A stretch of 64,000 nucleotides of DNA from Candidatus Melainabacteria bacterium. Its GTDB lineage: Bacteria > Cyanobacteriota > Vampirovibrionia > 2-02-FULL-35-15. Positions within the stretch are counted from its first letter, which is position 1. Each line of letters begins with the position of its first letter. Below are positions 9,314 to 53,403 of this stretch, piece after piece. The notes beneath the pieces were generated by a model, which saw only the letters and a program-made list of their open reading frames with translations, had not been told where the DNA came from and made no database searches. Position numbers and translations under genes: made by a program. The stretch covers positions 186,001-250,000 of the forward strand of contig JAHFBF010000001.1 of the NCBI GenBank assembly GCA_023250195.1, read 5' to 3'.

Positions 9314-11236
9314 ATGCTGTCTTTGATTAAAAAAGAATGGATATATTCTTTAAAACGAGTATCCAGAATAATAATTGATCTTTCCTTATTTGCTTTATCT
9401 CTGATAATTTCTTACAAGTTACGACTTGAGCACAACGTCTCCACTGAAACACAGGGATGGTTCTGGAATTCACAACTTCCATTTGTTTTACCAATTGTAC
9501 TTTCTTTAAGATTACTATTTCTATTTATATTTCAAATTTACAGCAGGATGTGGAGATACACAGAATTAAATGAAATCTTAGAACTTACAAAACCAATTTT
9601 CTATTCATCTTTAATTCTATCCACTCCGCGTATTATTGGACTTAACGCTTACAACCAGCTTTTTGTAATTCCACTCGGCGTGATAATTATTGATTCATCA
9701 TTAAGCTTAATTTTCCTCTCATTCGCCAGACTGCTTAGAAAATGGCAGATTACAAAAAGAACAATTAAAAAAAGGCAGAAAGCAAATAATCATAGAGAAA
9801 AAAAACGTACTCTTTTAATTGGTGCGGGTCAGGCAGCCCAGGAGCTGGTAAGAAAGGTTATACAACATCCTGAACTTGATATAGAAATAATCTGTGCCCT
9901 TGATGACGATGAAAGAAAGCAAAAGATAAAAATCAGTGACAAAGTAAGAGTAATCGGACATATTAATGATTTAAGTAAAACCGTAGCCGACCACAACATT
10001 GAACAAATAATAATTGCCATTCCATCATTACCACCGAATCAAATTAGAGAAATTATAGATCTCTGTCAGACAACAAAACTTGAAACCAAAATTATCCCCG
10101 GAGTAGATCAACTGGCTGAAGGAAAAGTTACAATCGAAAAAATTAGGAGAATCAGCCTGGAAGATCTTCTTGGACGCGAACCAGTAGATTTATCAATCCC
10201 CGAAGTAGCTGCTTTTATAAATAATAAAACAATTTTAATTACAGGAGCAGGAGGCTCAATAGGCAGCGAATTAACGAAACAATTAGTTACTAATTTTTCA
10301 CCAAAGAAAATATACATCCTTGGAAGAGGTGAGAATAGTATATTTCAACTTTCTCAGGAATTAAGCCGTTTAACTTCAATACCATTTACCCCGATTATCT
10401 GTGATATTAGAAACTATAAATTCCTCCGCGACCATATAACAAATATCTCTCCTGATTTAATTTTTCATGCAGCAGCACACAAACATGTGCCATTAATGGA
10501 AGAGCACCCAATGGAAGCATTTGAAAACAATGTAATTGGCACTAAAAATCTGGCAGAAATAGCCGGATTACTAAATATTGAAACTTTTGTGAATATTTCA
10601 ACCGATAAAGCAGTAAATCCTATTAACGTTTTGGGTAATACAAAAAGGCTTGCTGAGCTTATTGTAAACACCTATGCTGAAAAATTCACAAAGACAAAAT
10701 ATATTTCAGTCCGGTTTGGCAATGTAATTGGAAGCAGGGGAAGCGTAATCCCAATATGGGAAGATCAGTTAAAAAATAATCTACCTATAACTGTTACTGA
10801 CAAAAACGCATATAGATTTTTTATGACAATCTCAGAATCAGCCCAACTCGTAATAAAGGCAGGTGCAGTAGGAAAAACTTCAGAAATCATGGTACTGGAC
10901 ATGGGCAATGAAGTAAATATAGACTCTCTGGCAAAAGATTTCATAAGATTATCAGGAAATGATCCTGATCAAATAAAAATCAAATATACAGGACTCAGAC
11001 CCGGCGAAAAGTTAAAAGAAGAACTTGTTGGTTATTATGAAGGAACAAATAGTACAAAACATAAAAAGATTTTAGTTATTGAACCGAAAGAATTTTCAGC
11101 GAGTTCTCTATTAAATACTCTTGAAGAATTACAGCAATTATCCACAAAATCCGACAAAATAACTTTTAAAGATAAGCTTTTTGAGGAAGTCAAAAAAATA
11201 AATGGGCTAGAAAAATCAATCCCTGTAAAGGTTTGA
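9314..11236 (+). CDS. CapD/FlaA1/PglF-type membrane nucleotide-sugar 4,6-dehydratase
   Basis: 640 residues. About four membrane helices in the first ~140 residues are followed by a CoA-binding-like Rossmann domain (LLIGAGQAAQELV) and the C-terminal short-chain dehydrogenase domain beginning ITGAGGSIGSELTKQL. Relatives convert UDP-GlcNAc to the 4-keto-6-deoxy sugar that feeds glycan and protein-glycan synthesis. The active-site region ISTDKAVNP has Thr430, Asp431 and Lys432, and Lys444 is conserved. The position that is Met in the well-studied T-M-K triad is Leu440 here (NVLGNTKR). It lies beside a convergent DegT aminotransferase gene, a common partner in making amino sugars. Family is certain; the product sugar is not. 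Confidence 0.9.
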   Translation: MLSLIKKEWIYSLKRVSRIIIDLSLFALSLIISYKLRLEHNVSTETQGWFWNSQLPFVLPIVLSLRLLFLFIFQIYSRMWRYTELNEILELTKPIFYSSLILSTPRIIGLNAYNQLFVIPLGVIIIDSSLSLIFLSFARLLRKWQITKRTIKKRQKANNHREKKRTLLIGAGQAAQELVRKVIQHPELDIEIICALDDDERKQKIKISDKVRVIGHINDLSKTVADHNIEQIIIAIPSLPPNQIREIIDLCQTTKLETKIIPGVDQLAEGKVTIEKIRRISLEDLLGREPVDLSIPEVAAFINNKTILITGAGGSIGSELTKQLVTNFSPKKIYILGRGENSIFQLSQELSRLTSIPFTPIICDIRNYKFLRDHITNISPDLIFHAAAHKHVPLMEEHPMEAFENNVIGTKNLAEIAGLLNIETFVNISTDKAVNPINVLGNTKRLAELIVNTYAEKFTKTKYISVRFGNVIGSRGSVIPIWEDQLKNNLPITVTDKNAYRFFMTISESAQLVIKAGAVGKTSEIMVLDMGNEVNIDSLAKDFIRLSGNDPDQIKIKYTGLRPGEKLKEELVGYYEGTNSTKHKKILVIEPKEFSASSLLNTLEELQQLSTKSDKITFKDKLFEEVKKINGLEKSIPVKV

Positions 11237-11241
11237 CAGTT

Positions 11242-12381
11242 TTAGCTATTTTCAAGTATATTTCTAATTTGTTCAACAACATATTCCTGAACTTCAGGCT
11301 TTATTTCAGGATAGATTGGCAAAGATAAGATCTCATTACAAATTTTTTCTGTAACTGGTAATAAACCACTCTTATAATTTAAATATTCAAAAGCTTTTTG
11401 CAAATGGATTGGGATTGGATAGTAAATTATAGTTTCTATTCCTAATTCTTTTAACTTTTCATGTACTAAATCTCTATTTTGCAGTCTTATCGTATATTGA
11501 TGAAAAATATGATGGCAACCAGGTTTTACCTGAGGAATAATAATTCCTTTTACATTCTTAAGAAGCTCATTATAATAAGCTGCGGCTTTTTGGCGTTTCA
11601 CATTCCATTCATCTAAATATTTCAACTTTACTCTTAAAATTGCAGCCTGAATTTCATCAAGCCTGCTGTTTAATCCTATATATTCATGCACATAACGTTT
11701 TAAAGAACCATGAAATCTAAGCTGTTTAATTTTTCTAGCAAGCTCTTCATTATTAGTTACAACAGCTCCAGCATCTCCAAAAGCACCAAGATTTTTTGTA
11801 GGGAAAAAACTTATAGTCCCTATATCACCAAAAGTGCCAACAGTTTTTCCATTTAACTTAGCTCCTACAGCCTGAGCACAATCTTCTATAACAAATAAAT
11901 TATGTTTCTTTGCAATATCAACTACTTTCAAAATGTCACATGGCTGCCCATATAAATGAACAGGAATAATTGCTTTGGTGTTTTTAGTAATTAATTTCTC
12001 AATCTTATCTGGATCAATATTAAAATCATTTTCCTGAATGTCTATAAAGACAGGCTTTGCTCCAACTAAAGCAATAGCTTCACTCGTTGCAAAAAAGCTA
12101 TGAGATGCAGTAATAATCTCATCCCCCTGCCTAATACCTAAAGCCATTAAAGAAAGAATAAGAGCATCTGTGCCATTTGCACAGGATATAACATGCTTGG
12201 TCTCAATATACTTAGATAATTCTTCTTCAAAAAGGGTAACGTTAGAACCAAGGATATAAGAACCAGAAGCTAAAACCTCAAGAACTACATTTTCAATTTC
12301 ATTTTTGATTAATTGATAGCTTGAAGCTAAATCAATAATAGGTATCTTTTTAACTTTTTGTACAATACCTGACTTTATCAT
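11242..12381 (-). CDS. DegT/DnrJ/EryC1/StrS-family sugar aminotransferase
   Basis: 379 residues of the PLP-dependent family that aminates keto sugars on nucleotide carriers. The PLP lysine is Lys196 in [15 protein letters not shown]. The upstream [12 protein letters not shown] supplies the cofactor Asp and Gln, and SCANGTDAL binds phosphate. Length and motif order are typical. Its start overlaps by 4 bp the stop of an upstream 30-residue basic reading frame. Next to the CapD-type dehydratase it would be expected to aminate the 4-keto product, but that pairing is inference because the two genes are convergent. Confidence 0.92.
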
Positions 12382-12479: not shown

Positions 12480-13406
12480 CTATTTATTTACAACAGAAAT
12501 TGTAGTTGGAAATATATCAACTGTTGGTCCTGTTACTATAGCAGTATGACTGGTTTGCGGCAAAGCAAAGCTTAATTTTGACTTTCCTACTCCTTTTGGA
12601 AGTAAATCCACATCAATAGTAAAATCTTTCTCGGCCTCATTAGTCAAAACTATTTCAACCCCGGAACCGCCACCTTCACCACTAAAAGAACTTGAGTTAA
12701 AAGACTTGGCTGCAATCCCCGGAGCAATAATTGCATGTCCAAATGTTTCATCAACATCAATAACTTTATTATCAGCTAATAAAATCGGTATAAAAATTGT
12801 CTCTTCCTTTTGTGCCAGTCTTTGAATCTCTAAAGTAATCTTATTTTGATTTAAAACCAGTCTCTTCCTACCTTTCTCAAGTTTTTCAGTAACCTCTATC
12901 TCATTATTTGTTTTAACATTAATCATTACATCATTATCAATTACCAGTCCTTTTGAAGGCAATGCTAATTCATCAGCAACCATTAAGAGAGATACATCTG
13001 ATACACCATTGCCAACAGAAGTTAGAAAAATATTTAACTTTAAGGTTGCTGGCAATCCATTTTCATCGAATTTGATTAACCCAACCCCTGTTCCAGCCTT
13101 ATCTTTTGATGTTGAAGCTACTGCCAGAATATTAGAAGTAGCAAGGCCATCCAATGAAACCTTCTCTACATCTACAATCATTGTGTCAAGCTTTATTGGA
13201 ATAAATAGTGTTTGTTGTCCTTTTGGAATATCTTTAACCGTTATTTCAATTGAATATTGAGGCACTGTTATGGTCCTTGAATCCTGTTTAGCTATTTCCT
13301 TTTTAACAATCTTAGTTTCTGTTTTAATCACTTTTGTTTCTGCAATAACTTTCAAAGACTGTACACATAGAAAACCTATAATCAAAACAATTAATAGTTG
13401 TTTCAT
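12480..13406 (-). CDS. Secreted protein with two cohesin-like beta domains
   Basis: 308 residues from the ATG at 13406, preferred because an AAGGGG ribosome site abuts the earlier in-frame ATG at 13412 and is properly spaced from this one. An N-terminal signal peptide (LLIVLIIGFLC, cut probably near VIAE) leads to two beta-rich repeats. The first begins SIEITVKDIPKGQQT and holds LPATLKLNIFLTSVGNGVSDVSLL; the second begins NKITLEIQRLAQ. The first repeat lines up with the N-terminal domain of the neighbouring 464-residue secreted protein, showing common ancestry. The fold looks like cohesin/Ig type. Function unknown; extracytoplasmic binding or surface assembly is plausible. Confidence 0.7.
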   Translation of the reverse strand: MKQLLIVLIIGFLCVQSLKVIAETKVIKTETKIVKKEIAKQDSRTITVPQYSIEITVKDIPKGQQTLFIPIKLDTMIVDVEKVSLDGLATSNILAVASTSKDKAGTGVGLIKFDENGLPATLKLNIFLTSVGNGVSDVSLLMVADELALPSKGLVIDNDVMINVKTNNEIEVTEKLEKGRKRLVLNQNKITLEIQRLAQKEETIFIPILLADNKVIDVDETFGHAIIAPGIAAKSFNSSSFSGEGGGSGVEIVLTNEAEKDFTIDVDLLPKGVGKSKLSFALPQTSHTAIVTGPTVDIFPTTISVVNK

Positions 13407-13494
13407 TTGCATCCCCTTATTTTCTAATTCATTCTATCAAAAATATAAGTAGCAATACTGTTAAAGCAAATAGAAGATTATTAGGAGAATTAAT

Positions 13495-13551: not shown

Positions 13552-14946
13552 TTATTGAAGTGAATTTGAACAACTGCCGCTGACTTGGACTTTCTTACCA
13601 GCAGTACCATTGTCTGTAGTTACATTTACATAACTACCCTTTGGTATGCATGAAGAAACTGGGTAATTTACCTTAACAACCTTACCCTTAGCAGCTACAG
13701 AAGTTGAGACTCTGTCTGTTGGGACAAGTTCTACTGTTGTTTTGTCAACAGTGAATTTTTGTCCAAATATTCTTAAGACAGTTCCTGAGCTTCCATTGCT
13801 AGCTCTAGCTGAGTTAACTTTAGGTGCACTACCACCAGCTCCTGCTGTAATTGAAACGCTTCCTAAATCAACTTCAGATTTTCCAACTTTTAACTTAAGA
13901 GCTAGACTTCCTGAACTTGGTAGTTTAACAACTGCAATACCAACCATGTTGCTATCTACAAAATCAACGTGCTTACCATTTAATGTAGCTTCAGTTCCTT
14001 CCTTAACTCCACTAGCAGAGAAAGAAATTGCTGCTTTTCCTGGTCCAACTACTGAAGTTGGTCCAATTAATGCAAATGAACCACCTGATGTGCTTCCACC
14101 ACCAGAATTAGTTACGCTATTTGGGCTAACTGTTGCAACTACACTGCTTGTAACATCAGTTCCACCGGCAACTTCTACTTTACTGACTGAAATTGTAGAT
14201 GTACCACCTGTTGAACCAGCTTTTAACATTGCAGTTAGTATAACTTTATTGTCAGAAACAACTCCATCCCATGCTGCTGTTAAAACGTTGCCTTTTACTT
14301 CGGTTAACAATTGTGTTGCACCGGTACCCATAAATGTAAGTCCCGCTGTATCAACTGTTGCAACTCCGGCTGTTCCAAATGCAAGGGTTACGTTTGCTCC
14401 ATTTGTACTGTTTAGTGCTTGACCATCAATTGTAATGGTAACTGTATCTGCACTTAACATACCAGATCCGCCTGTAGTGCTTGATGATGAGGTTGATGAT
14501 GTGCTTGTTGAACTTGATGATGCTACTGCAACTGAACTTACATCAACTGCTGCCATTGCTCCGGCAATTGCTACACCACCGCTACCAAGCATATCTAAAA
14601 CATTTCCTACTACTAAAGATGACATCCCTGCAGCAACTCCTGTTAAATCAACTGTTAATTTTACGGTTGCTGGTAGATCCATATCTGAGAGTACTGCTAC
14701 ACCTTTTGAACCACCATCTGCTAAACCAAGTCCACCTACATCTGATGATACTGCACCCAATTTTAAAACTGCTGTATCTACTGTAACTTCAACTGCAAGT
14801 GATGATGTACCTGCTGGTATTCCACTTACTGTAATTACTGCTTTCGATGGTGTTGCTGTTTGTGCATTTGCTACTGAAAAATTAAATCCAAAGCAAATTG
14901 ACATAAGCAACATTAAAAACACACCTAAAGTCGCTTTTCTAACCAT
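13552..14946 (-). CDS. Secreted cohesin-like / IPT-TIG domain protein
   Basis: 464 residues from the ATG at 14946. The longer frame from a GTG at 14961 would place the GGAGG ribosome site inside the gene. The protein has a signal peptide (FLMLLMSICFGF, cut near ANAQ). It then has two cohesin-like beta domains (AVITVSGIPAGTSSLAVEV and VTITIDGQALNSTNG) joined by a Ser/Thr run near residues 150-165. The C-terminal region is IPT/TIG-like (VNSARASNGSSGTVLRIFG) with two cysteines near the end (SSCIPKGSY and SGSCSNS) likely to form a disulfide. It is rich in Gly, Ser, Thr and Val, with base composition unlike the AT-rich neighbours. Probably an abundant surface protein and a plausible glycosylation target. 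Confidence 0.75.
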   Translation of the reverse strand: MVRKATLGVFLMLLMSICFGFNFSVANAQTATPSKAVITVSGIPAGTSSLAVEVTVDTAVLKLGAVSSDVGGLGLADGGSKGVAVLSDMDLPATVKLTVDLTGVAAGMSSLVVGNVLDMLGSGGVAIAGAMAAVDVSSVAVASSSSTSTSSTSSSSTTGGSGMLSADTVTITIDGQALNSTNGANVTLAFGTAGVATVDTAGLTFMGTGATQLLTEVKGNVLTAAWDGVVSDNKVILTAMLKAGSTGGTSTISVSKVEVAGGTDVTSSVVATVSPNSVTNSGGGSTSGGSFALIGPTSVVGPGKAAISFSASGVKEGTEATLNGKHVDFVDSNMVGIAVVKLPSSGSLALKLKVGKSEVDLGSVSITAGAGGSAPKVNSARASNGSSGTVLRIFGQKFTVDKTTVELVPTDRVSTSVAAKGKVVKVNYPVSSCIPKGSYVNVTTDNGTAGKKVQVSGSCSNSLQ

Positions 14947-15072
14947 TTTATTTTCCTCCACCCTTTCCTAAACTTTTTTTTACTTGACTTGAGACTAAAT
15001 TATAAATTAGTCCTTAATTAGTTATATTTTATAAAATTTTATTAGATTACTTATTGTCAAAATTGGTTTTTT

Positions 15073-15100
15073 AAAAAAGAGGCCCCCGTTTGGGGGCCTT
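15073..15100 (-). terminator. Strong intrinsic terminator of the 1364-residue surface protein gene
   Basis: GGCCCCC and GGGGGCC arms (15081-15087 and 15092-15098) with a 4-base loop. On the minus strand the hairpin is followed by a T-run made by the A-run 15073-15078. It lies 22 bp after the stop codon, and its GC-rich stem in an AT-rich genome points to a highly expressed gene. Confidence 0.92.
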
Positions 15101-15121: not shown

Positions 15122-18100
15122 TTAGCTAAGACCGAGAGCTGACTTGGCAGCTTTGATAACTGCTTGGAGTGTATTTCCTCCGGCAGTTACTACTGCTGAC
15201 AGACCACCGTTAGATGATACAAAGCTAAGTACTTCGGCAATTGATACTTTGCCATCTGCACCTGCTATTTGATTAAAGATATCATCTACTGATTGTCCTG
15301 AACCACCGCCACCACAAATAGCTGTCTTTGTAGCTGCAGTGGTCTTTGTACCACTAACTTGTTCAGCTGCATTGACAGTTATACTTGTTGCCGTTGCACA
15401 ATCACCTCTGAGTTTGGCTGTAAATGAACCATCTTCAGAAGCTGTTACTGTGGTTGTGTCATATGTTGTGCTTGCTCCTGTTGTAACAACAACTTGAGCA
15501 CCACCATCTACAGCTCCTGCAGTACCTGTTACGGTAACTACATTATCTGTTGATGGAGAACCACTTGAGCTAAGTGCTGCTGCTGAAGCAGTAATCTTGG
15601 AAGAATCTGCATTCTTTAAACTGCCTGCTGCAAGTACCTTAGCAAATGTGGTGATCTGAGGTGTACCTTCAGATGTAAGTCTGGATGTCAGCAATTGATT
15701 TGCTAATGAACCAGTACCTAACTGAAGTGCTGCTGTTGCTGCTGTTGCTCCATTAAGCTGAGTAAATGCTTTTGTAGAGGCAGGTGCAAACGGTGTGAAT
15801 ACGGTCGGTGTTGAAGCGCTATTACCAGATGCAATACCTGGGGTATTTACAACTACTCCACCATCTTGTGAGAAGAACTCGACTGATGCAGCTAAGTCAG
15901 TTGTACTGCTTATTGCTGCACTAAGTACTGCATTCTTAACAGTAATGGTTGTTGTAGATGTAGCTGGATCTGCTGCACCTGTTGCAGTGTTTCTCTTAAC
16001 TCCAATGATAAGTGTACCAATTGGTGCATTTGCATCAACTGTTGATGAAGTCACTAGTAATGGATTTCCATCTACTACCAATGAAGTATCAGAGAAGCTA
16101 ACATCCGCTGCTACTGGTGCTGCGCTAAACCCTGAAGCTGAAGAAGGTACTACCCAGATTTGACCCTTGCTAAGTACAGTAGATAGTACTGAATTATCAG
16201 GATCTAAGTTTCTGGCTGATGTTCTTCCGCCAATTGGAATTGACTTTGGATCAGTTTCAGCAACTGTAAACGTATGTGAGGTAGATGCAGAACCACCAGA
16301 TAATCGAGGAGTTGCTCCTGTCATAGAGTTAGTGGATACTTCACCTTTTGTTGAATTTGCTGTATCATTGCCGAAAACAAAGGTTGCAGCTTGTTTTGCT
16401 GTACCAAAGTTTGCTGTGCCAAGGCTTGCAGTAACTGTTGCACCAGATACTTTGTTATTAGCAACTACTGCGCCCATTAAGTCGCCTGTAACTGCTGTAG
16501 GACAGAAGATATCCTGTGAATCAAGTCTAAACAAGATAGCATCTCTAACTGCACTGTCAGTTGCTCCACCTAGTCCAGATGCGATTCTAAACCTTAGTTT
16601 AGCTGGAGTTGATCCTGTTGCTGGTTCAACTACATTTGCATTTGTAATGGCTGCATCACCGGAACCACCTGCTGATACTGCTGCCGATAGGCCTGCTGTA
16701 CTTGTAATTGTCGTTCTGGTTACATCATTACCGCCGGTTGCTGAAGTAGTAGATACTGCTGTATTGTTATCATCTCTATCGTCAATAACATCACAACCTG
16801 ATGGTAAGCTAACTTCAAATACTGTTCCTTGACTTCCGCCGCCTACTTGGCTGACTAACTCATTGAAACCGGTATTAGTAGTTTCTTTTACTAAGATACC
16901 TCTGCCTTCACCTTGTACAACTGATGAACCGTCAACTACAGTATTGCCAGAAACTGAGTTGCCGACACCACCTGTAAATAAGGCTGATGGAGAAGCAATA
17001 GTTGCACCTGTACATGCTCCTGTAACTGCTGCATCAAATGTACCTGTGCTAACTCCACTTAGTACAACACTGGATTCACCGCCACTTGAGCAAGTAACTC
17101 CTAGTTGACTGTTTGAAGCTAAAGCTACACCTTGTGCACTTGCTAGGTTGCTGCCACCTGTGCTCGTGCTACTTGATGCTAAAGCACCAACTAATTTTGC
17201 AAGAGTTAAGGTAGTGCTTCCAGTTAAGTTATTACCAGAGATTTCAGCTATAAGGTTTACATCAGTTGCAAATGTGCTGCTAATGTTTGTAACCTGTATT
17301 CTAGGTGTAACGGCAATAATGTCTCTTACATTATCAAAGCCATTTGAAATTGGGAGCAATGTCAATGTATTGTTAACGCATGATGCATATAACAATGCAT
17401 TACCTGATGTTTGTGAGATATTCGTACCCGTCCATGGAGAAAATGCCAAGGATGTTGCATTAACTGGATTTGATCCACCGATGTTTGTCAGTGCTTGTGT
17501 AAACAATGTAGTAGCACTGTTAACAACAAAGCTATTACCAGCTTGAGTTGCTCTGATAATTTGATTTAAACCATCAGTTGTACCAACTGCTACGGCTGCA
17601 CTGTTTACCAATGCAAACCAACCCGCCACTGGGTTTGTGCTAGTACCGCACTCTAACCTTAAGTCAATGAATGTACTGTTAAATGGTTCTGTAGTATTAC
17701 CTGCAGTTTGGTTAAATCCACCGAGGGCTGCTCCCCCTGCGGTTTGACCTTCTTGAACCGAAGCAACAGCACCACCATTTACTGAGACAACACCCCATGA
17801 AGTACCAGTTACCTGATATGTAGCATTGGTTGTAGTAATAGCAGCACTATCAAATGTAGCTGCTCTTAGTGCACCTAAGAAGCCGCTTCTTCCTGCTTGA
17901 GTTGCTGCAAAACCTGCTTGTGATGGTGTAGCACCTGCTGTTGAACCACCAATGATAATGTCAACTCCTAATACTGCAGTAGTAGCAGATGCATTATCAT
18001 CCGCAAATGCAATTGTAATAGGGGCTGCAACTGAGTTATTAAAGTATGTAGTTAGATCAAGTGCAGAGCCACTTGGAGTAAGTCCTGCTGAAGTAATTGC

Positions 18101-19216
18101 ATTTAGCAATTCACCTGTCGCAATAACCTGGTCTGTTGCTCCAACCCCAGTAAGTGTAGTTCCAGTTCCTTTAATAAGAATAGGTTCTATATCTACCAAG
18201 GAAGTGGCATTTACACCACCTGCTAATGTTGCTGTGTCAAAAGCATAAACTCTTGTATTTGAACTAATTGACCCTAAAGCTAACAGGTTAGCACTAGCTG
18301 TACCAGATTTGTCATATAACTCTGTTGAATCATCATCAGCATCTAACACTGCTTCTATCTTGCCTGCTGTTGAAGCTACTGTACAGAGATTTATTGTTCC
18401 ACTTAATCCTGGAATTGCTGCTGCCGCTGCTGGGGTAGCAACACCGCCTGTTGTTCCTATACCACTGGGTGGGCTGGAATCTAATGTGGCTTGTAATGTA
18501 CCACTGAGAGCACCATTTCCAGATGGTGCTATTGCAATACCTAAACCAGTAATTGTAACTGTAGCTAAGTTACTACCTGTGCCTGATTTTGGATATGTTT
18601 CATTTCCTGCTGTAAGACCACTTGCTGAGTCAGCGTCTCTTGAAATTGCAACAACAGCTCTTCCAATACCTGCTGTTCCTGCTGTTACAACACCTACGTT
18701 AATTCCAAGTGGAGTATCTGTTGTACCATTTGTAGAATCTTGAGAGGAAGCATTTGAAATCGTTGCGTTTGCTGGATCAAGTCTATTACTTTGTCCTGAT
18801 GTAGTGTCTTCAAAGCCAGGCACTATAACAAAGTTTGTACCAGTTGGTGGGACAAATGAAAATACGTTACCGATTACATCGCCATTAGTACTAATAGAAC
18901 CAGCTAATGTAGCTCGTGTATTTCCATTTTGGGCAGCTGCTGTAGTAGTTCCTGCTGTTGCTGATGCATCCACCCCTGGATTAAATTCTGATGCAGTCAA
19001 AGTAAGCTGAATCGTACCGATATTGTAAACCGTAACTAATGCACCATTTGCAACAGTGCCTGCGTGTTGGAAGCAGGTTCCTGTTGTTGGTGATGTAAGT
19101 GTTACTGCTGCTTGAGCACTTGGCCCAAAAAGCGATAAGAGATTTGAAAGCATAAGCGCAAAAAGAAACGTTAGCGCAATTCCTCGCTTAGTTTTCTTTG
19201 ATGAAATCAATTTCAT
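15122..19216 (-). CDS. Large Ser/Thr/Ala/Gly-rich secreted protein, probable S-layer or sheath protein
   Basis: 1364 residues. A Sec signal peptide is clear: basic start MKLISSKKTKRG, hydrophobic core, cleavage at AQA-A near residue 37. The mature part is almost wholly low-charge beta-prone sequence rich in Ser, Thr, Ala, Gly and Val, with about ten widely spaced cysteines. Near the C-terminus is an Ig-like unit (NVVTVTGTAGAVDGGAQVVV), then a segment IAGADGKVSIAEVLSFV resembling an EF-hand, then a helical tail. No catalytic motif was found. Codon choice and base composition differ from the flanking genes. AAGGAG ribosome site, consensus-like promoter and strong terminator suggest high expression. 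S-layer or sheath function is inferred from composition and context. It stands divergent to the glycosyltransferase array and is the best candidate substrate. Confidence 0.75.
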   Translation of the reverse strand: MKLISSKKTKRGIALTFLFALMLSNLLSLFGPSAQAAVTLTSPTTGTCFQHAGTVANGALVTVYNIGTIQLTLTASEFNPGVDASATAGTTTAAAQNGNTRATLAGSISTNGDVIGNVFSFVPPTGTNFVIVPGFEDTTSGQSNRLDPANATISNASSQDSTNGTTDTPLGINVGVVTAGTAGIGRAVVAISRDADSASGLTAGNETYPKSGTGSNLATVTITGLGIAIAPSGNGALSGTLQATLDSSPPSGIGTTGGVATPAAAAAIPGLSGTINLCTVASTAGKIEAVLDADDDSTELYDKSGTASANLLALGSISSNTRVYAFDTATLAGGVNATSLVDIEPILIKGTGTTLTGVGATDQVIATGELLNAITSAGLTPSGSALDLTTYFNNSVAAPITIAFADDNASATTAVLGVDIIIGGSTAGATPSQAGFAATQAGRSGFLGALRAATFDSAAITTTNATYQVTGTSWGVVSVNGGAVASVQEGQTAGGAALGGFNQTAGNTTEPFNSTFIDLRLECGTSTNPVAGWFALVNSAAVAVGTTDGLNQIIRATQAGNSFVVNSATTLFTQALTNIGGSNPVNATSLAFSPWTGTNISQTSGNALLYASCVNNTLTLLPISNGFDNVRDIIAVTPRIQVTNISSTFATDVNLIAEISGNNLTGSTTLTLAKLVGALASSSTSTGGSNLASAQGVALASNSQLGVTCSSGGESSVVLSGVSTGTFDAAVTGACTGATIASPSALFTGGVGNSVSGNTVVDGSSVVQGEGRGILVKETTNTGFNELVSQVGGGSQGTVFEVSLPSGCDVIDDRDDNNTAVSTTSATGGNDVTRTTITSTAGLSAAVSAGGSGDAAITNANVVEPATGSTPAKLRFRIASGLGGATDSAVRDAILFRLDSQDIFCPTAVTGDLMGAVVANNKVSGATVTASLGTANFGTAKQAATFVFGNDTANSTKGEVSTNSMTGATPRLSGGSASTSHTFTVAETDPKSIPIGGRTSARNLDPDNSVLSTVLSKGQIWVVPSSASGFSAAPVAADVSFSDTSLVVDGNPLLVTSSTVDANAPIGTLIIGVKRNTATGAADPATSTTTITVKNAVLSAAISSTTDLAASVEFFSQDGGVVVNTPGIASGNSASTPTVFTPFAPASTKAFTQLNGATAATAALQLGTGSLANQLLTSRLTSEGTPQITTFAKVLAAGSLKNADSSKITASAAALSSSGSPSTDNVVTVTGTAGAVDGGAQVVVTTGASTTYDTTTVTASEDGSFTAKLRGDCATATSITVNAAEQVSGTKTTAATKTAICGGGGSGQSVDDIFNQIAGADGKVSIAEVLSFVSSNGGLSAVVTAGGNTLQAVIKAAKSALGLS

Positions 19217-19455
19217 TAATTTCTACTCCTTCATTTTTATTGTTAACTATTTTGTAACTTTTAGAATAACTTTTTTGTGTTCAGGCCAAATGCACTTTGA
19301 AATCTTAAAAAACTTCAAATTCATTTTTCCTTAACCACGCCAAAATAAAGAATACAACAGTTTGTTTGAACTTCAACCAAATCATAAAGTTCCAGTTAAC
19401 ATCAATAAATTCACAGAAAATAGTATGACAGATTTGTGATCTTGATTTTCATAGC

Positions 19456-19643: not shown

Positions 19644-21632
19644 ATGACTAAGAGAGAAAACAATAAAAAAAAAGTTATTAGCTATTTACTCGGGACAGTA
19701 TTTCTAGTCTTTTTTATATATTCTTTTTCACTATTCAGGCCATGGCAGCCTTTTGATGAAAGACTTTTTTATAATGAAGAGTTTTTACCTATCCCTCAAT
19801 CATTCAGTGAAGTATTTGAAATTATTAATTCATTTGTTTTAAACAGCCACATTATTTCAACAAATACTTTTTTTTCAAATCACCTTTTACTAAGAAGCGA
19901 TCCTGTAGCATGGTCAATATTAACTTTTATTTTTTTCTTCTTTAAGAAGAATGCTCTTCTTTATCATATCTTTCAGCTTTTTATACATCTGACAAACACT
20001 ATTCTCGTATGGCTTACTTTCTATAACCTGACAAAATTAAAAGACAATAAATCTTATTCACTTAACAACTATGACTATTCTTTAATTTCGATTCTTACAG
20101 GACTCTGGAGCCTTCACAGCATAAATACCGAAGCTGTTCTACTGGTTACAAACTGGAATCCACTTTTAATTTACACCTCTTCTTTTGGTTTCATACTCTA
20201 TGAAACATATAAAAGTACTAACAAAAAATTGGGGATTTCATTCGTTGAAATAATGTTGATTCCTATATTATTTTATTTTGCAATGTCACTAACTGAATTG
20301 GGATACACTTTGCCATTGGTCCTTTTTTTAATAACGTTTAGCTTATCTCTTAAAACAAACATTCCAATAAAAGATTCAATAAACATCTCATTAAAAAGAA
20401 CAGCTCCATATTTTATCGGACTTGGATTATTTTTAATATCTCAATTAATAAAACCAGACTCATCTATTACTAATTTATATACAGCACAAAAATCAATCTA
20501 TCCATTTGTAGAGAGGAATTTGTGGCTTACACCTCAAATTTTTATGGGATTTTTAAACCTGTTATTCTTTCCTAAAACTCTATCAACATACCAATCAAAT
20601 TTAATTCATCTATCTGAGAGCCTTTTTAACCCTTACTCAATTTTCTGTACCTTAATATATCTTATTTTTCTAATAATTCCTGTTGTTTTGTTTATATTAT
20701 TTAAAAAATCAAACGATAAGTTTTTATGTCCTTTAGCATATTGCTTTTATTTTGTACTTTTCCCATTTCTTCATATACTTACCCCTTCATACTGTTTAAT
20801 TGCAGATAGATATTGTTATTTCCCTTTATTTTTCCTTTTGCTTTTTATATATCAGTTGTTTCTTAACTTTAACAAAGGAAAGAGCTTAAAACCTCTAATA
20901 TTTTTCTTTCTTAGCTTTTTAATTGTTTTTATCCTAAGAACATATATAAGAATAAATGAATGGAATAATCCTCATACATTCCTCCAATCAGCAATAAATG
21001 CAGATAAAAACCCTCTTTATAAAGCATATAAACTTATAATTTTTGCAAAAAACTTTGCTGACAAAAAAAACGAATCCCTAGAAGAAAGCTTAAGACTGTT
21101 AGATATAAGCAAAAAAACATTAGAAAAAAACATTGGAAATCCTATTAATGAGCCACTTACACTTAAATCATATGGACTCGATTCAAAGTCTTTACTCTTA
21201 AAAACTGTTTTTTTAATTGCAACTATAAAAAATGATTATTATAAAGAAGAGCCTAAAACCACATTGTCGTTTTATGAACCCTATATAAAAGAATATCTTG
21301 ATTTGGCTGGAATAAATCATTTAGCACTATATGCTTCAATACTTGCAAAAGACGGGCAGTTAAATAATGCAAAAAAAGTACTTGAATATGCACTACAGAA
21401 ATTCTCTTACTCTCCAGAAATAATGAAATCTCTTGCTAACTTTTATTTCTATGAAAAGGATTTTAAAAGATTAGGAAAAATATTAAGTCAAGCATATAAA
21501 CTTTTTCCTAATGACAAAGATTTTATTAGAATGTTTTATAGCTATTACAAATCAATAAATGATAGAGAGAATGAAGCCAGATTTGCATATTTAATTAGAC
21601 TAAGAGAACATTTAACAGTTACTATTAAATAG
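19644..21632 (+). CDS. TMTC-like GT-C membrane glycosyltransferase, array member 1
   Basis: 662 residues. TM1 (about 12-31) is followed by the acidic pair Asp38-Glu39 (PWQPFDER), as in the first extracytoplasmic loop of PMT-like GT-C enzymes. Then come LRSDP, LYHIFQLFIHLTNT, HSINTEAVLLVTNW (~158-171), ERNLWLTPQIF, LSTYQSN and ADRYCYFP (~387). These match the order of motifs in eukaryotic TMTC proteins, which are O-mannosyltransferases with TPRs. After about 11 helices comes a soluble domain with the array signature YGLD (510-513) and TPR-like helices. It ends just after the AYLIRLREH motif, so it lacks the extra TPRs of members 2 and 3. An A9 run occupies codons 7-10. The next gene starts at the base after its stop. 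Acceptor and sugar are unknown. Confidence 0.8.
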   Translation: MTKRENNKKKVISYLLGTVFLVFFIYSFSLFRPWQPFDERLFYNEEFLPIPQSFSEVFEIINSFVLNSHIISTNTFFSNHLLLRSDPVAWSILTFIFFFFKKNALLYHIFQLFIHLTNTILVWLTFYNLTKLKDNKSYSLNNYDYSLISILTGLWSLHSINTEAVLLVTNWNPLLIYTSSFGFILYETYKSTNKKLGISFVEIMLIPILFYFAMSLTELGYTLPLVLFLITFSLSLKTNIPIKDSINISLKRTAPYFIGLGLFLISQLIKPDSSITNLYTAQKSIYPFVERNLWLTPQIFMGFLNLLFFPKTLSTYQSNLIHLSESLFNPYSIFCTLIYLIFLIIPVVLFILFKKSNDKFLCPLAYCFYFVLFPFLHILTPSYCLIADRYCYFPLFFLLLFIYQLFLNFNKGKSLKPLIFFFLSFLIVFILRTYIRINEWNNPHTFLQSAINADKNPLYKAYKLIIFAKNFADKKNESLEESLRLLDISKKTLEKNIGNPINEPLTLKSYGLDSKSLLLKTVFLIATIKNDYYKEEPKTTLSFYEPYIKEYLDLAGINHLALYASILAKDGQLNNAKKVLEYALQKFSYSPEIMKSLANFYFYEKDFKRLGKILSQAYKLFPNDKDFIRMFYSYYKSINDRENEARFAYLIRLREHLTVTIK

Positions 21633-24092
21633 ATGGCTAAATTAATAAAAACCCAGCTTAAAGCTAAAAAGAAAAACTCTTTTTTTACTTCTCCAGGCTT
21701 TTTATACCTTGTCGGAACAGTTTTTATAGTTTTTTTTGTTTATTCTTTTTCATTATTCAGACCATGGCTTCCATTTGATGAAAGGCTAATTTATAAGGAG
21801 ACTTTTTTCCCAATCCCTACAAGATTTGAAGAAATTTCTGAAATTATTAATTCTTTTATTTTGAAATCTCATATTCTTTCAATGAATAGCTTTTTTTCAA
21901 ATCAGACTACCCTTCGCTCCAACCCAATAACTTTTGGATTAATAGTTTTTGTTTCCTTCTTTTTTAAGAAACATGCTTTTCTCTATCACCTGCTACAGCT
22001 TTTTATTCATTTAATCAACACTGCAATGGTCTATATACTGCTTAAAAAGACCATTTCAATTTTGGCTCGCAACCAATCAGTTTTAAATAACAATTTTATT
22101 AATTTAACTGCTTCACTATTTACTTTGCTGTGGGGATTACACAGTGCAAATACAGAAGCTGTATTACTGGTAACAAACTGGACTGCTCTACTAACATATA
22201 CATTCTGTTTTTGCTTCCTTCTATATGAGATTTCAAAAATTGAAAAAAACATATTTTCCACAAGTAAAAATCAGACAATATTGATTTCACTACTGTTTCT
22301 TATATTGATGTTCTTGACAGAATACGGTTATACACTACCTGCAATAATATTTTTCATGGTTATTGCCTATAGCATAAGGAATTCTAAATCTATAAAAGAG
22401 TCAGTTGTAAGTGCAACAAAGGTGTCTATGCCATATTTCATTGGTTTGTTTTTATTCTTTTTACTTTCAGTTTTTAAATCAGGTTCTGCCATAAATAACA
22501 TTATTGCCAGTCAAGGGAAGCCATCATTTGCTGTATCTGAGTTTGTTGAAAGAAATCTCTGGTTTGTCCCGCAAATATTCATCCACTTTTTAAAATTGCT
22601 TATATTCCCTAAAATACTTTCTCTATACCAGTCAAATCTTGTTCATTTGTCTAATAATCTCATTACGCCCTATTCGATTTTTTGTTCTTTATCTTATGCT
22701 TTATTTCTCTTTATGCCCTTAATTTTATTGTTCTTATTTAAGAAAAAGATTCATGGTTTTATCTATCCATTAATCTATGTATTTTACTTTTCTGTTTTTC
22801 CTTTTTTACATATTATTACTCCGACTTACTGCTTAAGTGCTGACAGATATTGTTATTTCCCTTATTTTATTCTTTTATTTATTTTGATTCAGCCCTTTTA
22901 TTTATTGTTTAGTGGGAAAAATCAAACTATTTTAAAACCATTATTTATTACTGCTTCATGTTTTATTCTAATTTTTGGAGTTAGAACCTTAATTAGGATT
23001 CAGGAATGGAATGATCCTTATAAACTTTATAGTTCAGCCGCTAAAGCTGAAAAAAATCCTCTCTATAAAGGTCAAAGACTGATTATCCTTGCAAATTATG
23101 TTGGTGAAAAAGGCAGTCAAATACAAATGGAAAATTTCCTTCAGGACAGCCTTAAATCACTAAATAAAGCCCTGGAAAAATTCAAGCATGAAAAAGAGCA
23201 GTCTCCAAATCAACCATTGACTTTAAAGTTATATGGTTTAGATTATAAAACTTTAATACTAAAAACTGCTTATTCGATTGCAACTATTAAAAATGACAAT
23301 TATCAAGAACCACCAGAACAAATTCTAGATTTTCTCAATCCTTATTTCAAAGACAATCTTAAAATTGCCGGGATAACACAAATTATCTTATATTCCGAGA
23401 TTCTTTTAAAAGCGGGATTGTTAGACAAAGCTAAAAAAGTACTTGAATATGGATACAGAAAATTTAATTACTCTGATGAAATTTTAAATACGCTAGCTGA
23501 ATACTATATGTTTTATGAAAAAGACCTTGATAAAAGCTTTAAAATTTTACAACATGCTTACAATTTATTTCCTAACAATGTGCAAATTTTAGATAAGTTT
23601 TTAAAATATTACGAACAAAAGAATGATCCCATAAATCAGGCAAAAATCGCTTATCTAATTGGACTAAGAAGACATTCTCCTAAACATTATCAGCTTTCGG
23701 CTAAAATTTACCTTGATTTAAACCAATTACAACTTGCAAATAAGGCACTTAGAAAATCAATTCGTTTAAATAGCGAGGATCCTCTTACGTTGCTCCTTAC
23801 AAGCAGGTATTTGGATCTAACCGGTCAAAGAAATAAAATCTTAGGGGTACTTAACACTGCTCTTATCTTAAGCAATAAATTAGGGAATAAACAGGATTTA
23901 AATGTTACAAAAAGCATTTTAATTAGTTTAATTAACCTTCATGCAAACCTTGGAAATATAAGTAATGCAAAACAATTTTTAAGTGTATTTGAAACAATAA
24001 AGAATCTAACTCCACTGGATAGATTACAAGTTCAGTCTACAAAAAAATTAATAGAAGATATTGAAAAAAATGGCAAAGTCACCAAAAGATAG
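21633..24092 (+). CDS. TMTC-like GT-C membrane glycosyltransferase with long TPR tail, array member 2
   Basis: 819 residues, the longest of the set. A basic N-terminal tail of ~20 residues precedes TM1; the acidic pair is Asp49-Glu50. Other landmarks are TLRSNP, HSANTEAVLLVTNW, ERNLWFVPQIF, LSLYQSN, ADRYCYFP and IQEWNDP. The soluble part carries LYGLDYKTLILKTAYSIA and AYLIGLRRHS (~670). About 140 further residues follow, with TPR-type units (for example NPLTLL-like SEDPLTLLLTSRYLDLTG). It is closest to members 1 and 3. The start abuts the previous stop with no spacer, and the end overlaps member 3. Confidence 0.8.
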   Translation: MAKLIKTQLKAKKKNSFFTSPGFLYLVGTVFIVFFVYSFSLFRPWLPFDERLIYKETFFPIPTRFEEISEIINSFILKSHILSMNSFFSNQTTLRSNPITFGLIVFVSFFFKKHAFLYHLLQLFIHLINTAMVYILLKKTISILARNQSVLNNNFINLTASLFTLLWGLHSANTEAVLLVTNWTALLTYTFCFCFLLYEISKIEKNIFSTSKNQTILISLLFLILMFLTEYGYTLPAIIFFMVIAYSIRNSKSIKESVVSATKVSMPYFIGLFLFFLLSVFKSGSAINNIIASQGKPSFAVSEFVERNLWFVPQIFIHFLKLLIFPKILSLYQSNLVHLSNNLITPYSIFCSLSYALFLFMPLILLFLFKKKIHGFIYPLIYVFYFSVFPFLHIITPTYCLSADRYCYFPYFILLFILIQPFYLLFSGKNQTILKPLFITASCFILIFGVRTLIRIQEWNDPYKLYSSAAKAEKNPLYKGQRLIILANYVGEKGSQIQMENFLQDSLKSLNKALEKFKHEKEQSPNQPLTLKLYGLDYKTLILKTAYSIATIKNDNYQEPPEQILDFLNPYFKDNLKIAGITQIILYSEILLKAGLLDKAKKVLEYGYRKFNYSDEILNTLAEYYMFYEKDLDKSFKILQHAYNLFPNNVQILDKFLKYYEQKNDPINQAKIAYLIGLRRHSPKHYQLSAKIYLDLNQLQLANKALRKSIRLNSEDPLTLLLTSRYLDLTGQRNKILGVLNTALILSNKLGNKQDLNVTKSILISLINLHANLGNISNAKQFLSVFETIKNLTPLDRLQVQSTKKLIEDIEKNGKVTKR

Positions 24093-26472
24093 TAATACAA
24101 AAAAGAAAGAGTTAACAGATTTTTCAGTTATGTTTTATTTGTCAGCTGTAATTTTAATTGTTTTTTTAGTGTATTCATTGTCACTTACACGAGGATGGAT
24201 ACCATTTGATGAAAGTTTTTTTTATAATCAGGAGTTTCTCCCTTTTCCTTTATCAATCAATGAAATACCTGAAATCATCCGTAATTTTGTTTTAAATGCC
24301 CATATCATATCTATGAATTCTTTTTTTTCAAACCTTGTTACGCTTCGTAATGACCCCTTGGCATGGTCAATACTTGTATTCATCTTCTACTTTTTCAGAG
24401 ACAACGCTTTCCTTTATCACTGTCTTTTGCTTTTTATACATCTTCTTAATACTACCCTTGTCTGGTTTATTTTTTTATCCACCTCTAAATTCCTTTTTTC
24501 TTCCAGTAAAACTTCTCCACTAAGTCCACATTTTCTTATCCTTATAGCACTACTTACTACTATCTGGGGTGTTCATAGTGCAAGTTCAGAAGCTGTTTTA
24601 CTCACCACTAACTGGAATGCCCTTTTAATTTACTCATTTTGCTTTGGATTTATTCTGTATGAAATATTAAATATTACAAAGAAGAGATTTGAGGTTTCAA
24701 AATTTGAAATGATTTTTATTCCATTATTATTTTTTCTTGCAATGTCTATTGTTGAGTTTGGGTATACGTTACCTGTTATTTTATTTTTTATGATCTTTGC
24801 TTTTTCACTTAAGATTACTGATTCTACAAAAGATTCACTAATTATTTCATTAAAAAGGACTTTGCCATATTTTATTGGTTTAGCTTTATTTGTAATTTAT
24901 TTACTGATAAAACCAGGCTCTTCATTTATAAACCTTTTTAGCACCCAAAAATCAATTTATTTATTTCTTGAAAGAAACCTTTGGCTTACACCTCAAATTT
25001 TTATACATTTCTTAAAACTTTTATTTTTCCCAAAGACATTATCCGCTTACCAGTCAAATTTAATTCACTTATCCGATGAACTCTTTAGTCCATATTCAGT
25101 CTTTTGTTTTATTGCTTATTTATCTTTCTTAATATTGCCTATTGTTTTATTTATCTTATTTAAAAAATCAAAAAACAGATTTTTATGCCCCTTAGTCTAT
25201 TGTTTTTACTTTGCAATTTTTCCTTTTATCCATATTCTTGCACCAACCTACTGTCTTGGTGCAGATAGATATTGTTATTTCCCCTCGTTTTTACTTATAT
25301 TTTTTATATTAAATAGCTTATTTTCTTCGAAGCAAAAAAAATCAAAGTTATTAATAGCACTACTGTCCTGTATTTTATTAACTCTTGGTACAAGAACCTT
25401 TATAAGAATACAGGACTGGCGAAATCCCATATCCTTCTATAACTCAGCTATAAAAGCAGACAAAAAATTTTTATATAAAGGACTCAAATTTTTATTACTT
25501 GCGGATTTCTTTGACTCTCAAAAGATGAAATCTCAGATGGATGATTCCATTAAACAAGCCCTGAGTGAATTTAATATTGCCATGAAAGACCTGAAAAGCT
25601 TAAAAGAAAAACATCCTACACAACTACTTACCCTGAGACTTTATGGGCTTGATTATGATTCACTCTTATTAAAAACTGCCCATGGAATTGCCATTATAAA
25701 AAAAAGTTATTTAAAAGATTCTATTTCTGACATTGTTCATTTTTTTGAGCCTTATATAGAAAAAAGATTGGACTATTCAGCTCCTAATGAAATTGCTTTT
25801 TATGGAGACATCTTATTAAAAAATAGTGAGTTTGAAAAAATTAAATACGTCTATGAATATGGTTATAAAAGGTTTCCTTTTGTTTTAGATATTAGTCTGC
25901 CACTTGCAGATTTTTATTTAACTCATGAAAATAATCCGGATAAATCCTTTCAAATTTTACAAGAGTCATATAAGTATTACCCCAACAAGGGGATGCCTAT
26001 GTATAAGCTCTTAAAGTATTATGAACAAAAAAATGACCTTGGAAATCAAGCTGAGTTTGCATACTTACTTGGCTTAAGAGATCACTCTATAGAAAGCTAT
26101 CAACACGCTGCTCAGATGTACCTGGATTTAAATAAATTAGCAAATGCAAAAAAAGCTCTAACTAAACTAATACTGCTTAATCCAAATAATCCATTGACAT
26201 TACTACAACTAAGTCGTTATATGGATTTGATGGGAGATAGGACCAGAATTTTGGATACACTAAATAAAGCTTACTTTTTAAATAAAAGGACAAACACAAA
26301 TGAAGCATTTATCACAAAAGCTATTTTAGTAAGCCTAATCAATGTAAATTACCGTTTTGGGAATCTGGAAAATGCAAAGAAGTATTTGTATGAGTTAGAA
26401 ACTATGAAAGATTTATCACTAGATGACATTAGACAAATTAAATCTGTAAAAGAGAGACTTGAAATTAAATGA
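24070..26472 (+). CDS. TMTC-like GT-C membrane glycosyltransferase with long TPR tail, array member 3
   Basis: 800 residues from the ATG at 24070; a TTG at 24061 would add three residues and is less likely. The start lies 23 bp inside member 2. Landmarks: Asp47-Glu48 in IPFDES, TLRNDP, HSASSEAVLLTTNW, ERNLWLTPQIF, LSAYQSN, ADRYCYFP, RIQDWRNP. The soluble region has LYGLDYDSLLLKTAHGIA, AYLLGLRDHSIESY and, beyond it, two or more TPRs (NPNNPLTLLQLSRYMDLMG). It shares subgroup features with members 1, 2 and 4 (YQSN rather than DQT, and ADRYCYFP). Confidence 0.8.
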   Translation: MAKSPKDSNTKKKELTDFSVMFYLSAVILIVFLVYSLSLTRGWIPFDESFFYNQEFLPFPLSINEIPEIIRNFVLNAHIISMNSFFSNLVTLRNDPLAWSILVFIFYFFRDNAFLYHCLLLFIHLLNTTLVWFIFLSTSKFLFSSSKTSPLSPHFLILIALLTTIWGVHSASSEAVLLTTNWNALLIYSFCFGFILYEILNITKKRFEVSKFEMIFIPLLFFLAMSIVEFGYTLPVILFFMIFAFSLKITDSTKDSLIISLKRTLPYFIGLALFVIYLLIKPGSSFINLFSTQKSIYLFLERNLWLTPQIFIHFLKLLFFPKTLSAYQSNLIHLSDELFSPYSVFCFIAYLSFLILPIVLFILFKKSKNRFLCPLVYCFYFAIFPFIHILAPTYCLGADRYCYFPSFLLIFFILNSLFSSKQKKSKLLIALLSCILLTLGTRTFIRIQDWRNPISFYNSAIKADKKFLYKGLKFLLLADFFDSQKMKSQMDDSIKQALSEFNIAMKDLKSLKEKHPTQLLTLRLYGLDYDSLLLKTAHGIAIIKKSYLKDSISDIVHFFEPYIEKRLDYSAPNEIAFYGDILLKNSEFEKIKYVYEYGYKRFPFVLDISLPLADFYLTHENNPDKSFQILQESYKYYPNKGMPMYKLLKYYEQKNDLGNQAEFAYLLGLRDHSIESYQHAAQMYLDLNKLANAKKALTKLILLNPNNPLTLLQLSRYMDLMGDRTRILDTLNKAYFLNKRTNTNEAFITKAILVSLINVNYRFGNLENAKKYLYELETMKDLSLDDIRQIKSVKERLEIK

Positions 26473-32699: not shown

Positions 32700-32701
32700 C
32701 A

Positions 32702-45796: not shown

Positions 45797-45817
45797 AAAT
45801 ACTACAATTAATGAAAG

Positions 45818-52504: not shown

Positions 52505-52509
52505 ATTTC

Positions 52510-53334
52510 ATGCCCCTTGTAAAAGAAAAACCTAAACAGACAATAGATAACCTAAGAGAAAATGCGGTTAGGCAAAGTAGCAAGATTAATCTTTCTTTAT
52601 TTAATTATTGTTTTCTGACTTATTTTTATTTAATAAGAGAAATTAAAAAAAATGCTTCTTATGCAAAAGGAACTCTTCTTGATATAGGATGCGGCTCATC
52701 TCCATTGGAAAATTATTTCTCCACCTATGTAGAAAAATATTTAAAGCATGAACATCCTGAAGCAGCTAAAGAAAATATTAAATACGACTATCTCTCTGAA
52801 CTTCCTGAAATAAATGCCCCAAATAATTCAATAGACACAATTGTTTCATTTGCAGTACTTGAACATGTTTCTAAACCATTTGAAGCTTTAGCTGAATGTA
52901 AAAGAATTTTAAAAGAAAATGGAATACTTATAATCTATGTCCCACAATATTGGCATTTACATGAAGAACCACACGATTATTTTCGTTTCACAAAGTATAT
53001 TTTAAAAGAAAAAATGAGTGAACTGAATTTGGAAATAATTCACCTAAAAGAAATCGGCGGATCATTTGCTGTAGTAGGTCAGGCATTTTGCAATGCAATT
53101 ATTTTAATGTTTGATTTAACTCATGTAAAAAACATATTTAACTTCTTATCAGGAAAGAAATCAGACGGTTTGGGAAAAAGCATAATTTATACTATTTACA
53201 AATCACCTTTAATATTATTAGCAATTATCCTAATACCAATTATCAATATACTTTTTTTAATTTTGGATCAATTACTTGGAAGCCCAAGAGATACTATTGG
53301 GTATTTCGTGGTTGCAAAGAAAATTGACAATTGA
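52510..53334 (+). CDS. Class I SAM-dependent methyltransferase with C-terminal membrane helix
   Basis: 274 residues. Motif I is TLLDIGCGSSPLE (55-67), and IDTIVSFAVLEHVSKPFEAL with LIIYVPQYWHLHEEPHDYFRFT follow the Methyltransf_11 pattern. A hydrophobic helix (LILLAIILIPIINILFLIL, ~231-250) near the C-terminus would fix it to the membrane. It lies 5 bp after member 13, so a sugar, lipid or acceptor in the glycan pathway is a likely substrate. A seven-base repeat array supplies its stop codon. Confidence 0.8.
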   Translation: MPLVKEKPKQTIDNLRENAVRQSSKINLSLFNYCFLTYFYLIREIKKNASYAKGTLLDIGCGSSPLENYFSTYVEKYLKHEHPEAAKENIKYDYLSELPEINAPNNSIDTIVSFAVLEHVSKPFEALAECKRILKENGILIIYVPQYWHLHEEPHDYFRFTKYILKEKMSELNLEIIHLKEIGGSFAVVGQAFCNAIILMFDLTHVKNIFNFLSGKKSDGLGKSIIYTIYKSPLILLAIILIPIINILFLILDQLLGSPRDTIGYFVVAKKIDN

Positions 53335-53350: not shown

Positions 53351-53403
53351 GATTTTGGGGACTATCTTTGCATTAACATTTTAAGTGTTGTATCATTTTC
53401 ATT

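Follow-up and report, generated by a model that had tools for sequence, protein, structure and literature searches.

Does a large Ser/Thr-rich protein, encoded next to a long array of membrane proteins, form the surface coat of its host, and is it the substrate of the array? This question is raised by a 64,000-nt stretch of Candidatus Melainabacteria bacterium DNA (assembly GCA_023250195.1, contig JAHFBF010000001.1, positions 186,001 to 250,000; below, the window), where the gene of a 1364-aa protein is divergent from genes that an earlier reading of the sequence alone (below, the sequence-only reading) described as thirteen glycosyltransferases of the GT-C type. We tentatively favor the answer, at slightly less than an even chance, that the protein serves as the main surface protein secreted by a family in the Vampirovibrionia, most likely as an S-layer or S-layer-like coat, and that it is O-glycosylated by the array; members of this class are inferred to be diderm (PMC4040986). 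Papers are cited by PubMed Central (PMC) identifiers. The components of this answer differ in strength: the protein is with good confidence a major secreted surface protein, its being a true S-layer is evenly balanced, and the chances that it is the acceptor of the adjoining array are about equal either way.

A family of large secreted proteins

The gene and the features of its product are the following (window coordinates):

15122..19216, minus strand, gene of the 1364-aa secreted Ser/Thr-rich protein, an S-layer-like candidate (open reading frame with full-length homologues)
19109..19216, minus strand, Sec-type signal peptide, approximately residues 1–36 (MKLISSKKTKR...PSAQA), assigned by eye and from the family alignment
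15125..17149, minus strand, C-terminal half, approximately residues 690–1364, in common with a separate paralogue of approximately 700 aa (genome search)
15125..15208, minus strand, C-terminal tail GGL..IV..GG..L..VI.AAK.ALGLS (alignment of 10 of 18 tails, from both paralogue families)

The Ser/Thr-rich open reading frame (ORF) of 1364 residues is confirmed, on the minus strand; the plus-strand frame of the same interval contains 111 stops. It is a genuine gene and not a chance ORF, since it aligns from end to end, at 55–80% identity, with nine other full-length proteins from relatives. The relatives constitute a Caenarcanales-like family of Vampirovibrionia with 11 genomes, including the window genome (G000–G010). 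All 11 match the protein, and nine have a full-length main copy; the copy in G002 is cut at the contig start, and G010 has a short match to the C-terminal half, also at a contig start. The family alignment comprises ten full-length proteins of 1310–1384 aa, that is, nine main copies and a second copy from G006.

A profile search of 146 genomes of the class matched 16 of them, 11 from the family itself and five from one sister family, and among 292 genomes drawn from the phylum five were matched, all from the family itself. Four sister-family homologues have 1514–1711 aa, and the fifth, of 843 aa, is truncated by the contig end. The family and sister-family alignments match each other (hhalign) with probability 99.8% and 22% identity over columns 10–1264 of 1355. 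Beside two sister-family homologues we observe runs of similar ORFs of approximately 92 aa with a membrane helix (L066, 8800–12402; L070, 4366–8060), several of which begin with the repeated MVEGNFKNKQSGLKRG.

S-layer proteins are typically secreted, large, acidic, poor in Lys, Arg, Cys, and Met, and abundant in small and hydroxy residues. The 1364-aa protein corresponds to this list, with the leader peptide judged by eye: without the leader it contains 14.7% Thr, 14.3% Ala, 12.0% Gly, and 11.4% Ser, its isoelectric point is 4.44, and Lys, Arg, Cys, and Met account for 1.8, 1.8, 0.8, and 0.2%, respectively. Among 298 ORFs of at least 150 aa, mechanically called in the window and 19 sampled stretches of the same genome, it ranks third by Ser+Thr content (26%) and sixth lowest by charged residues (10.1%). 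The charge is indeed low overall, but the claim that long stretches are almost free of charge went too far: no more than 72 consecutive residues lack a charge, compared to a mean of 51 and a maximum of 112 in 500 composition shuffles, and each 100-residue block has at least six charged residues. The signal peptide region is among the best conserved parts of the family, and all ten cysteines are invariant across the ten aligned proteins.

That the protein resembles no recognized family is also borne out. No family was matched in Pfam (E-value, E, up to 0.01) or NCBIfam (E up to 0.05), and the family profile had no match among PDB sequences (E up to 1). A single-sequence PDB search produced two weak matches, with E 0.73 (a proteasome subunit) and 0.84, and the sole Pfam match at E 0.1 among the ten homologues is a weak dCache_1 (E 0.022) in one of them. 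An internal duplication of the N- and C-terminal halves was considered and rejected, as none was found.

The C-terminal half matches the approximately 700-aa paralogue (G000:C6:362227-364218) at 42% identity (E 4e-96). The paralogue gene (G000:C6:362221-364218) is flanked by a gene of the pyruvate:ferredoxin-oxidoreductase type and a SIS/glutamine-amidotransferase (glmS-like) gene, an order shared by the four relatives that were read, G002 having two additional ORFs. The conserved tail is possibly a sorting or anchoring segment; its being the mark of a large surface-protein family was rejected, as the genome has two matches to it (E up to 1), the protein and the paralogue.

Composition, leader peptide, size, and conserved expression signals (see below) make the S-layer identity plausible; lattice formation and abundance lie beyond sequence evidence. 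Other roles can be read from the same data. A large adhesin, or a matrix or sheath protein serving attachment, without lattice formation and with protective glycosylation, would agree with the size and the Ser/Thr/Gly/Ala-rich composition, and in its favor a C-half paralogue with the same tail is encoded elsewhere. We nevertheless consider it distinctly unlikely, as the narrow length range of the ten homologues and the conserved expression signals are more coat-like, and the Pfam searches of the protein and its homologues produced no adhesin family. Still more improbable is an unexposed structural protein, periplasmic or associated with the outer membrane: the Sec leader alone is evident, and no secretion partner or anchor can be named, but in our judgment a surface coat is the better match for a protein of this size and composition.

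Expression signals and codon use

The gene is framed by signals conserved in the family:

19226..19231, minus strand, Shine–Dalgarno sequence AAGGAG, start context AAGGAGTAGAAATTA identical in nine of nine main copies
19349..19401, minus strand, 53-nt upstream element TGTTAAC..GGAACTTTATGA....TTGAAGTTCAAACAAACTG.TGTATTCTT, strongly conserved in nine of nine main copies
15080..15099, minus strand, intrinsic terminator, an 8-pair stem with 7 GC pairs, followed by C and T6

Both the strong ribosome site and the strong terminator noted in the sequence-only reading are present. AAGGAG is located 9 nt ahead of the ATG, and the 15 nt preceding the ATG are invariant in all nine main copies. In a terminator scan, a similar structure follows eight of the nine main copies, the one in G006 being the single miss, and none follows the second G006 copy.

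The intergenic region between the gene and the divergent array is 427 bp, and a long mRNA leader, suggested earlier, is compatible with it. The 53-nt element is unrecognizable ahead of the second, array-less G006 copy. Its pattern, with up to three mismatches, has one site in the genome, and so does the reversed control pattern. A hairpin can be formed, with compensatory changes absent; the element is possibly a promoter/operator or leader RNA, and the hairpin evidence does not separate the two. A riboswitch-like leader was rejected on the grounds of the hairpin lacking compensatory changes, a fold z-score of –1.9, and no Rfam match near the gathering score. A conserved inverted repeat TAGGA....TCCTA (19526–19539), closer to the array, is a possible operator.

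The base composition of the gene does stand out, as claimed, with GC content of approximately 0.42 compared to 0.30–0.40 to the left and 0.26–0.33 to the right, but the source is the amino acid content of the protein: GC content at third codon positions (GC3) is an ordinary 0.190, compared to the mean of 0.213 ± 0.027 in 263 background ORFs. An origin of the odd GC content by horizontal acquisition is unsupported, GC3 being normal. The claim of unusual codon use did not hold: the gene ranks 96th of 298 by codon adaptation index (CAI), and its codon-usage distance, 0.108, falls short of the eight largest among 65 long ORFs (the eighth is 0.114). C-ending codons are mildly increased (0.280 vs. 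0.207, binomial p 0.007, rank 43 of 298); in eight relatives they constitute 0.256–0.345 in main copies and 0.192 in the array-less copy, values that are not scaled to the relatives' own backgrounds. Codon bias was set aside as weak proof of high expression, since even 20 ORFs that surround the L2 gene, and are taken as ribosomal from their position, show hardly any bias (CAI 0.685 vs. 0.670).

The array of TMTC-like enzymes

19644..48109, plus strand, array of 13 membrane proteins, divergent from the 1364-aa gene (hydropathy, alignment, motifs, structure model, and tetratricopeptide repeat hits)

Of the thirteen GT-C enzymes proposed in the sequence-only reading, twelve are clearly similar to TMTC proteins, and the thirteenth (45818–48109) is divergent. 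Human TMTCs transfer O-mannose to Ser/Thr of beta strands in cadherin (Ig-like) domains, the tetratricopeptide repeats (TPRs) being the proposed means of substrate recruitment (PMC11292533); the motifs M1 (DD in the first loop) and M7 (ERxxY) of TMTC1-4 are described in PMC7801869. The array proteins, of 662–819 aa, have in 12 of 13 cases both an M1-like D[DE] following membrane helix 1, with the second D mostly replaced by E, and an M7-like [ED]RYxY, where the initial E of ERxxY is D in four. The divergent member has no TMTC-type motifs and yields a sub-threshold DUF2298 hit. TPR hits (E up to 0.1) are found in 11 of 13 proteins, above the curated cut-off in four, and the structure model shows a helical repeat. 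No match to Pfam DUF1736 was obtained in the 13 proteins at E 0.1.

One of the 13 proteins (26469–28550) was modeled with AlphaFold2 from 15 rows, 11 array proteins and four from the relative locus L021, giving a predicted local distance difference test score (pLDDT) of 86.4 and a predicted template modeling score of 0.88. In the VIA-align comparison, yeast Pmt4 ranks first (Z 16.3, 337 residues, 4.4 Å), followed by oligosaccharyltransferases (OST), AglB, and PglB at approximately 13–16, and ArnT at 13.3, with TPR proteins matching the C-terminal part. By this comparison the model has the GT-C fold, an assignment that rests on VIA-align, where high Z comes easily to helical folds and, from approximately Z 15 downward, GT-C enzymes are interspersed with TPR proteins. 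Foldseek retrieved chiefly proteins of the TPR type, PglB also being listed, and the array profile searched against PDB sequences matched mostly TPR proteins and no GT-C enzyme. Taken together, twelve of the 13 proteins are clear TMTC-like GT-C enzymes, with a predicted activity, donor, and acceptor.

Where an array could be counted, it has five genes in G005 (and one inverted, weak), seven in G009, 12 in G004, and 13 in the window; in other relatives contig ends cut it or its end is unreadable. Array-type matches at E 1e-20 in the 146 class genomes are confined to the family and one sister family, and are by far the strongest in the family itself, where they occur in 10 of 11 genomes, with none in G002 (at most seven candidates were scored per genome). 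In G001 a GT-C gene directly follows the aminotransferase gene described below and seemingly continues on another contig (L038, 8519–9071; L089, 1–910), possibly due to a block inversion or an assembly error.

Is the protein the acceptor of the array?

By its position next to the array, the protein had been called the natural acceptor. A divergent GT-C gene does adjoin the main copy in nine of nine testable cases (the window, G003–G009, and G001 via a 186-bp fragment; G002, whose contig is too short, was excluded), and it is not the case that homologues are always found without the array. At the same time, array-less homologues exist, namely the second G006 copy and all five from the sister family, and adjacency is weak evidence of function because the locus of the C-half paralogue is equally syntenic; we downgraded it from strong evidence after this control. 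Two further facts support the favored answer: sugar-nucleotide genes flank the block, and the protein and the array have similar distributions in the class, each present in the family and one sister family.

Several observations count against this answer, beginning with the control itself, that is, gene order around the paralogue as conserved as that around the main copy in the four relatives read. The second full-length copy in G006 is located on the same contig, approximately 27 kb from the array of the main copy, with no array-protein match beside it, and its Ser/Thr fraction, 0.257, is no lower than in the others. None of the five sister-family homologues has an array-protein match in its flanks (blastp with the window proteins, E 1e-4), the flanks being short in places (approximately 3 and 5 kb in G046; in G028 the gene ends at the contig end). 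Three of these five genomes have no array-type match at E 1e-20 among the at most seven candidates scored in each, and in five sister-family genomes with array-type genes, the array-type locus read in each contains no match to the 1364-aa protein. The array ranges from 5–6 to 13 genes, and neither the length of the protein nor its Ser/Thr content tracks this. Ser and Thr are not specially conserved, with invariant columns at 11% for Ser and 17% for Thr, compared to 15% for Ala, 9% for Val, and 41% for Gly; out of 354 Ser/Thr columns, 100 have Ser or Thr in all ten proteins. The acceptor motifs D[ST][AILVMT] and N-x-S/T are not enriched in the protein, the former having 9 sites vs. 7.7 ± 2.7 in composition shuffles, and in four homologues it is within approximately 1.6 standard deviations of chance.

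Other points of this kind concern the coat. No S-layer homology (SLH) domain (PF00395) or other anchor domain was found by Pfam in the protein (E 0.01) or the ten homologues (E 0.1). The structure model of the N-terminal half, built from a three-row alignment, has pLDDT 34 and was left out of the fold search. The codon use of the gene gives no clear sign of high expression.

Alternatively, the protein could be the main surface protein and the array could serve another acceptor, such as lipopolysaccharide, an exopolysaccharide, a lipid-linked glycan, or many envelope proteins, the two being neighbors through family-wide synteny. The paralogue control, the existence of array-less homologues, the variation of array size with an unchanged protein, and unrelated metabolic genes within the same conserved block all agree with this alternative. 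It is set back by the best solved matches of the array membrane domain, the protein-glycosylating Pmt4 and OST, with the lipid-A-modifying ArnT within approximately 3 Z of them, by the TPRs of the array, which recall TMTCs, and by the similar class-wide distributions. On balance we regard it as rather unlikely.

As the sister-family homologues that were read lie without the array, the latter looks like an addition, made within the family, to an older surface protein.

Genes around the protein and the array

Downstream of the 1364-aa gene and beyond the array the following genes are observed:

13552..14961, minus strand, P0002, a second Ser/Thr-rich protein (25% Ser+Thr) with a leader peptide, downstream of the 1364-aa gene, position conserved
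12480..13412, minus strand, P0003, a protein with a leader peptide (by eye), downstream, position conserved
11242..12381, minus strand, DegT/DnrJ/EryC1 sugar aminotransferase (Pfam PF01041, E 1e-130)
9314..11236, plus strand, Polysacc_synt_2 nucleotide-sugar dehydratase (Pfam PF02719, E 3e-104)
48177..55475, plus strand, post-array genes: radical SAM/SPASM, LPG_synthase_TM family, TPR membrane protein, methyltransferase, sugar nucleotidyltransferase, and GDP-mannose-dehydratase-type

P0002 and P0003 have a common domain (hhalign probability 94%, E 1.4e-7), and a weak TIG hit is found in one of nine aligned P0002 members. The gene of P0002 probably does not begin at the assigned GTG; nine aligned sequences (G006 left out) all have the methionine of codon 6 (ATG, 14946). 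The aminotransferase is not at the corresponding place in G004. The dehydratase we take to be PglF/WbpM-like. The order of the post-array genes is kept in G004 and largely in G005; the radical SAM/SPASM protein (48177–49268), located inside the glycosylation block, is well preserved in G001, G004, and G005. Further on, 57222–62755 encodes two adjoining proteins of approximately 910–940 aa with 8–9 hydrophobic segments and no Pfam hit; in G001 both adjacent genes there match the first of these proteins best, at 79% and 53%.

A possible pathway and its relation to known systems

If the protein is a coat decorated by the array, its route to the surface could be as follows. The leader peptide sequence, taken alone, suggests export via Sec. 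The protein would then adopt a mostly beta fold, in which the ten invariant cysteines may form disulfide bonds. TMTC-like GT-C enzymes would O-glycosylate Ser and Thr residues of the 1364-aa protein, and probably also of P0002, in the periplasm, presumably using polyprenyl-phosphate sugars as donors, with the TPRs holding the acceptor. Finally, the protein would be deposited on the outer membrane, with the conserved C-terminal tail perhaps mediating this step. A bolder version, which we find quite improbable, is that the tandem enzymes decorate the coat domain by domain, the TPR domains each recognizing their own part of one acceptor. The system would then be the counterpart in bacteria of the animal TMTC/TMEM260 pathway, which acts on Ig-like domains of cadherins and plexins, and possibly its evolutionary source.

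Like human TMTC1-4 (GT105) and TMEM260, the array proteins have an N-terminal GT-C domain, D[DE] in the first loop, [ED]RxxY, and C-terminal TPRs; unlike them, they occur as twelve tandem paralogues in one bacterium beside one secreted protein, and DUF1736 is unmatched. Full-length TMTC-like sequences in uncharacterized prokaryotes are noted in PMC7801869.

Loci for O-glycosylation of surface proteins are already known, e.g., in Tannerella forsythia, whose S-layer glycoproteins (PMC6120980) resemble the present case in being large surface proteins of a Gram-negative organism with a cluster of glycosyltransferase and sugar-modifying genes, the O-glycans being predicted in our case. In Tannerella a 27-kb glycosyltransferase/methyltransferase cluster builds the outer part of a decasaccharide (PMC6120980), whereas the cluster in the window consists of GT-C/TPR paralogues in an array. 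The motif of Tannerella acceptors, D(S/T)(A/I/L/V/M/T) (PMC8550257), is the one that showed no enrichment above. Melainabacteria have been reported to carry S-layer-like genes (PMC3787301, PMC4451040, PMC5877343). The S-layer-like or SLH proteins of Melainabacteria and cyanobacteria (PMC3787301, PMC4451040) share with the 1364-aa protein the class, the diderm envelope, and the predicted S-layer, but they were inferred from CyOG00138 or SLH domains; the 1364-aa protein has no SLH hit. In the open-licence papers covered by our searches we found neither the 1364-aa protein family nor a TMTC-like array beside a surface protein, and no paper joining S-layer, O-mannosyltransferase, bacteria, and TMTC.

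Prokaryotic TMTC-like proteins were noticed earlier, with no substrate assigned in the accessible part of the report (PMC7801869), and a compact locus that combines a TMTC-like array with one secreted protein offers a concrete candidate acceptor. If the proposed role is true, a coat protein would be identified for a non-photosynthetic lineage related to cyanobacteria, whose surface is little known.

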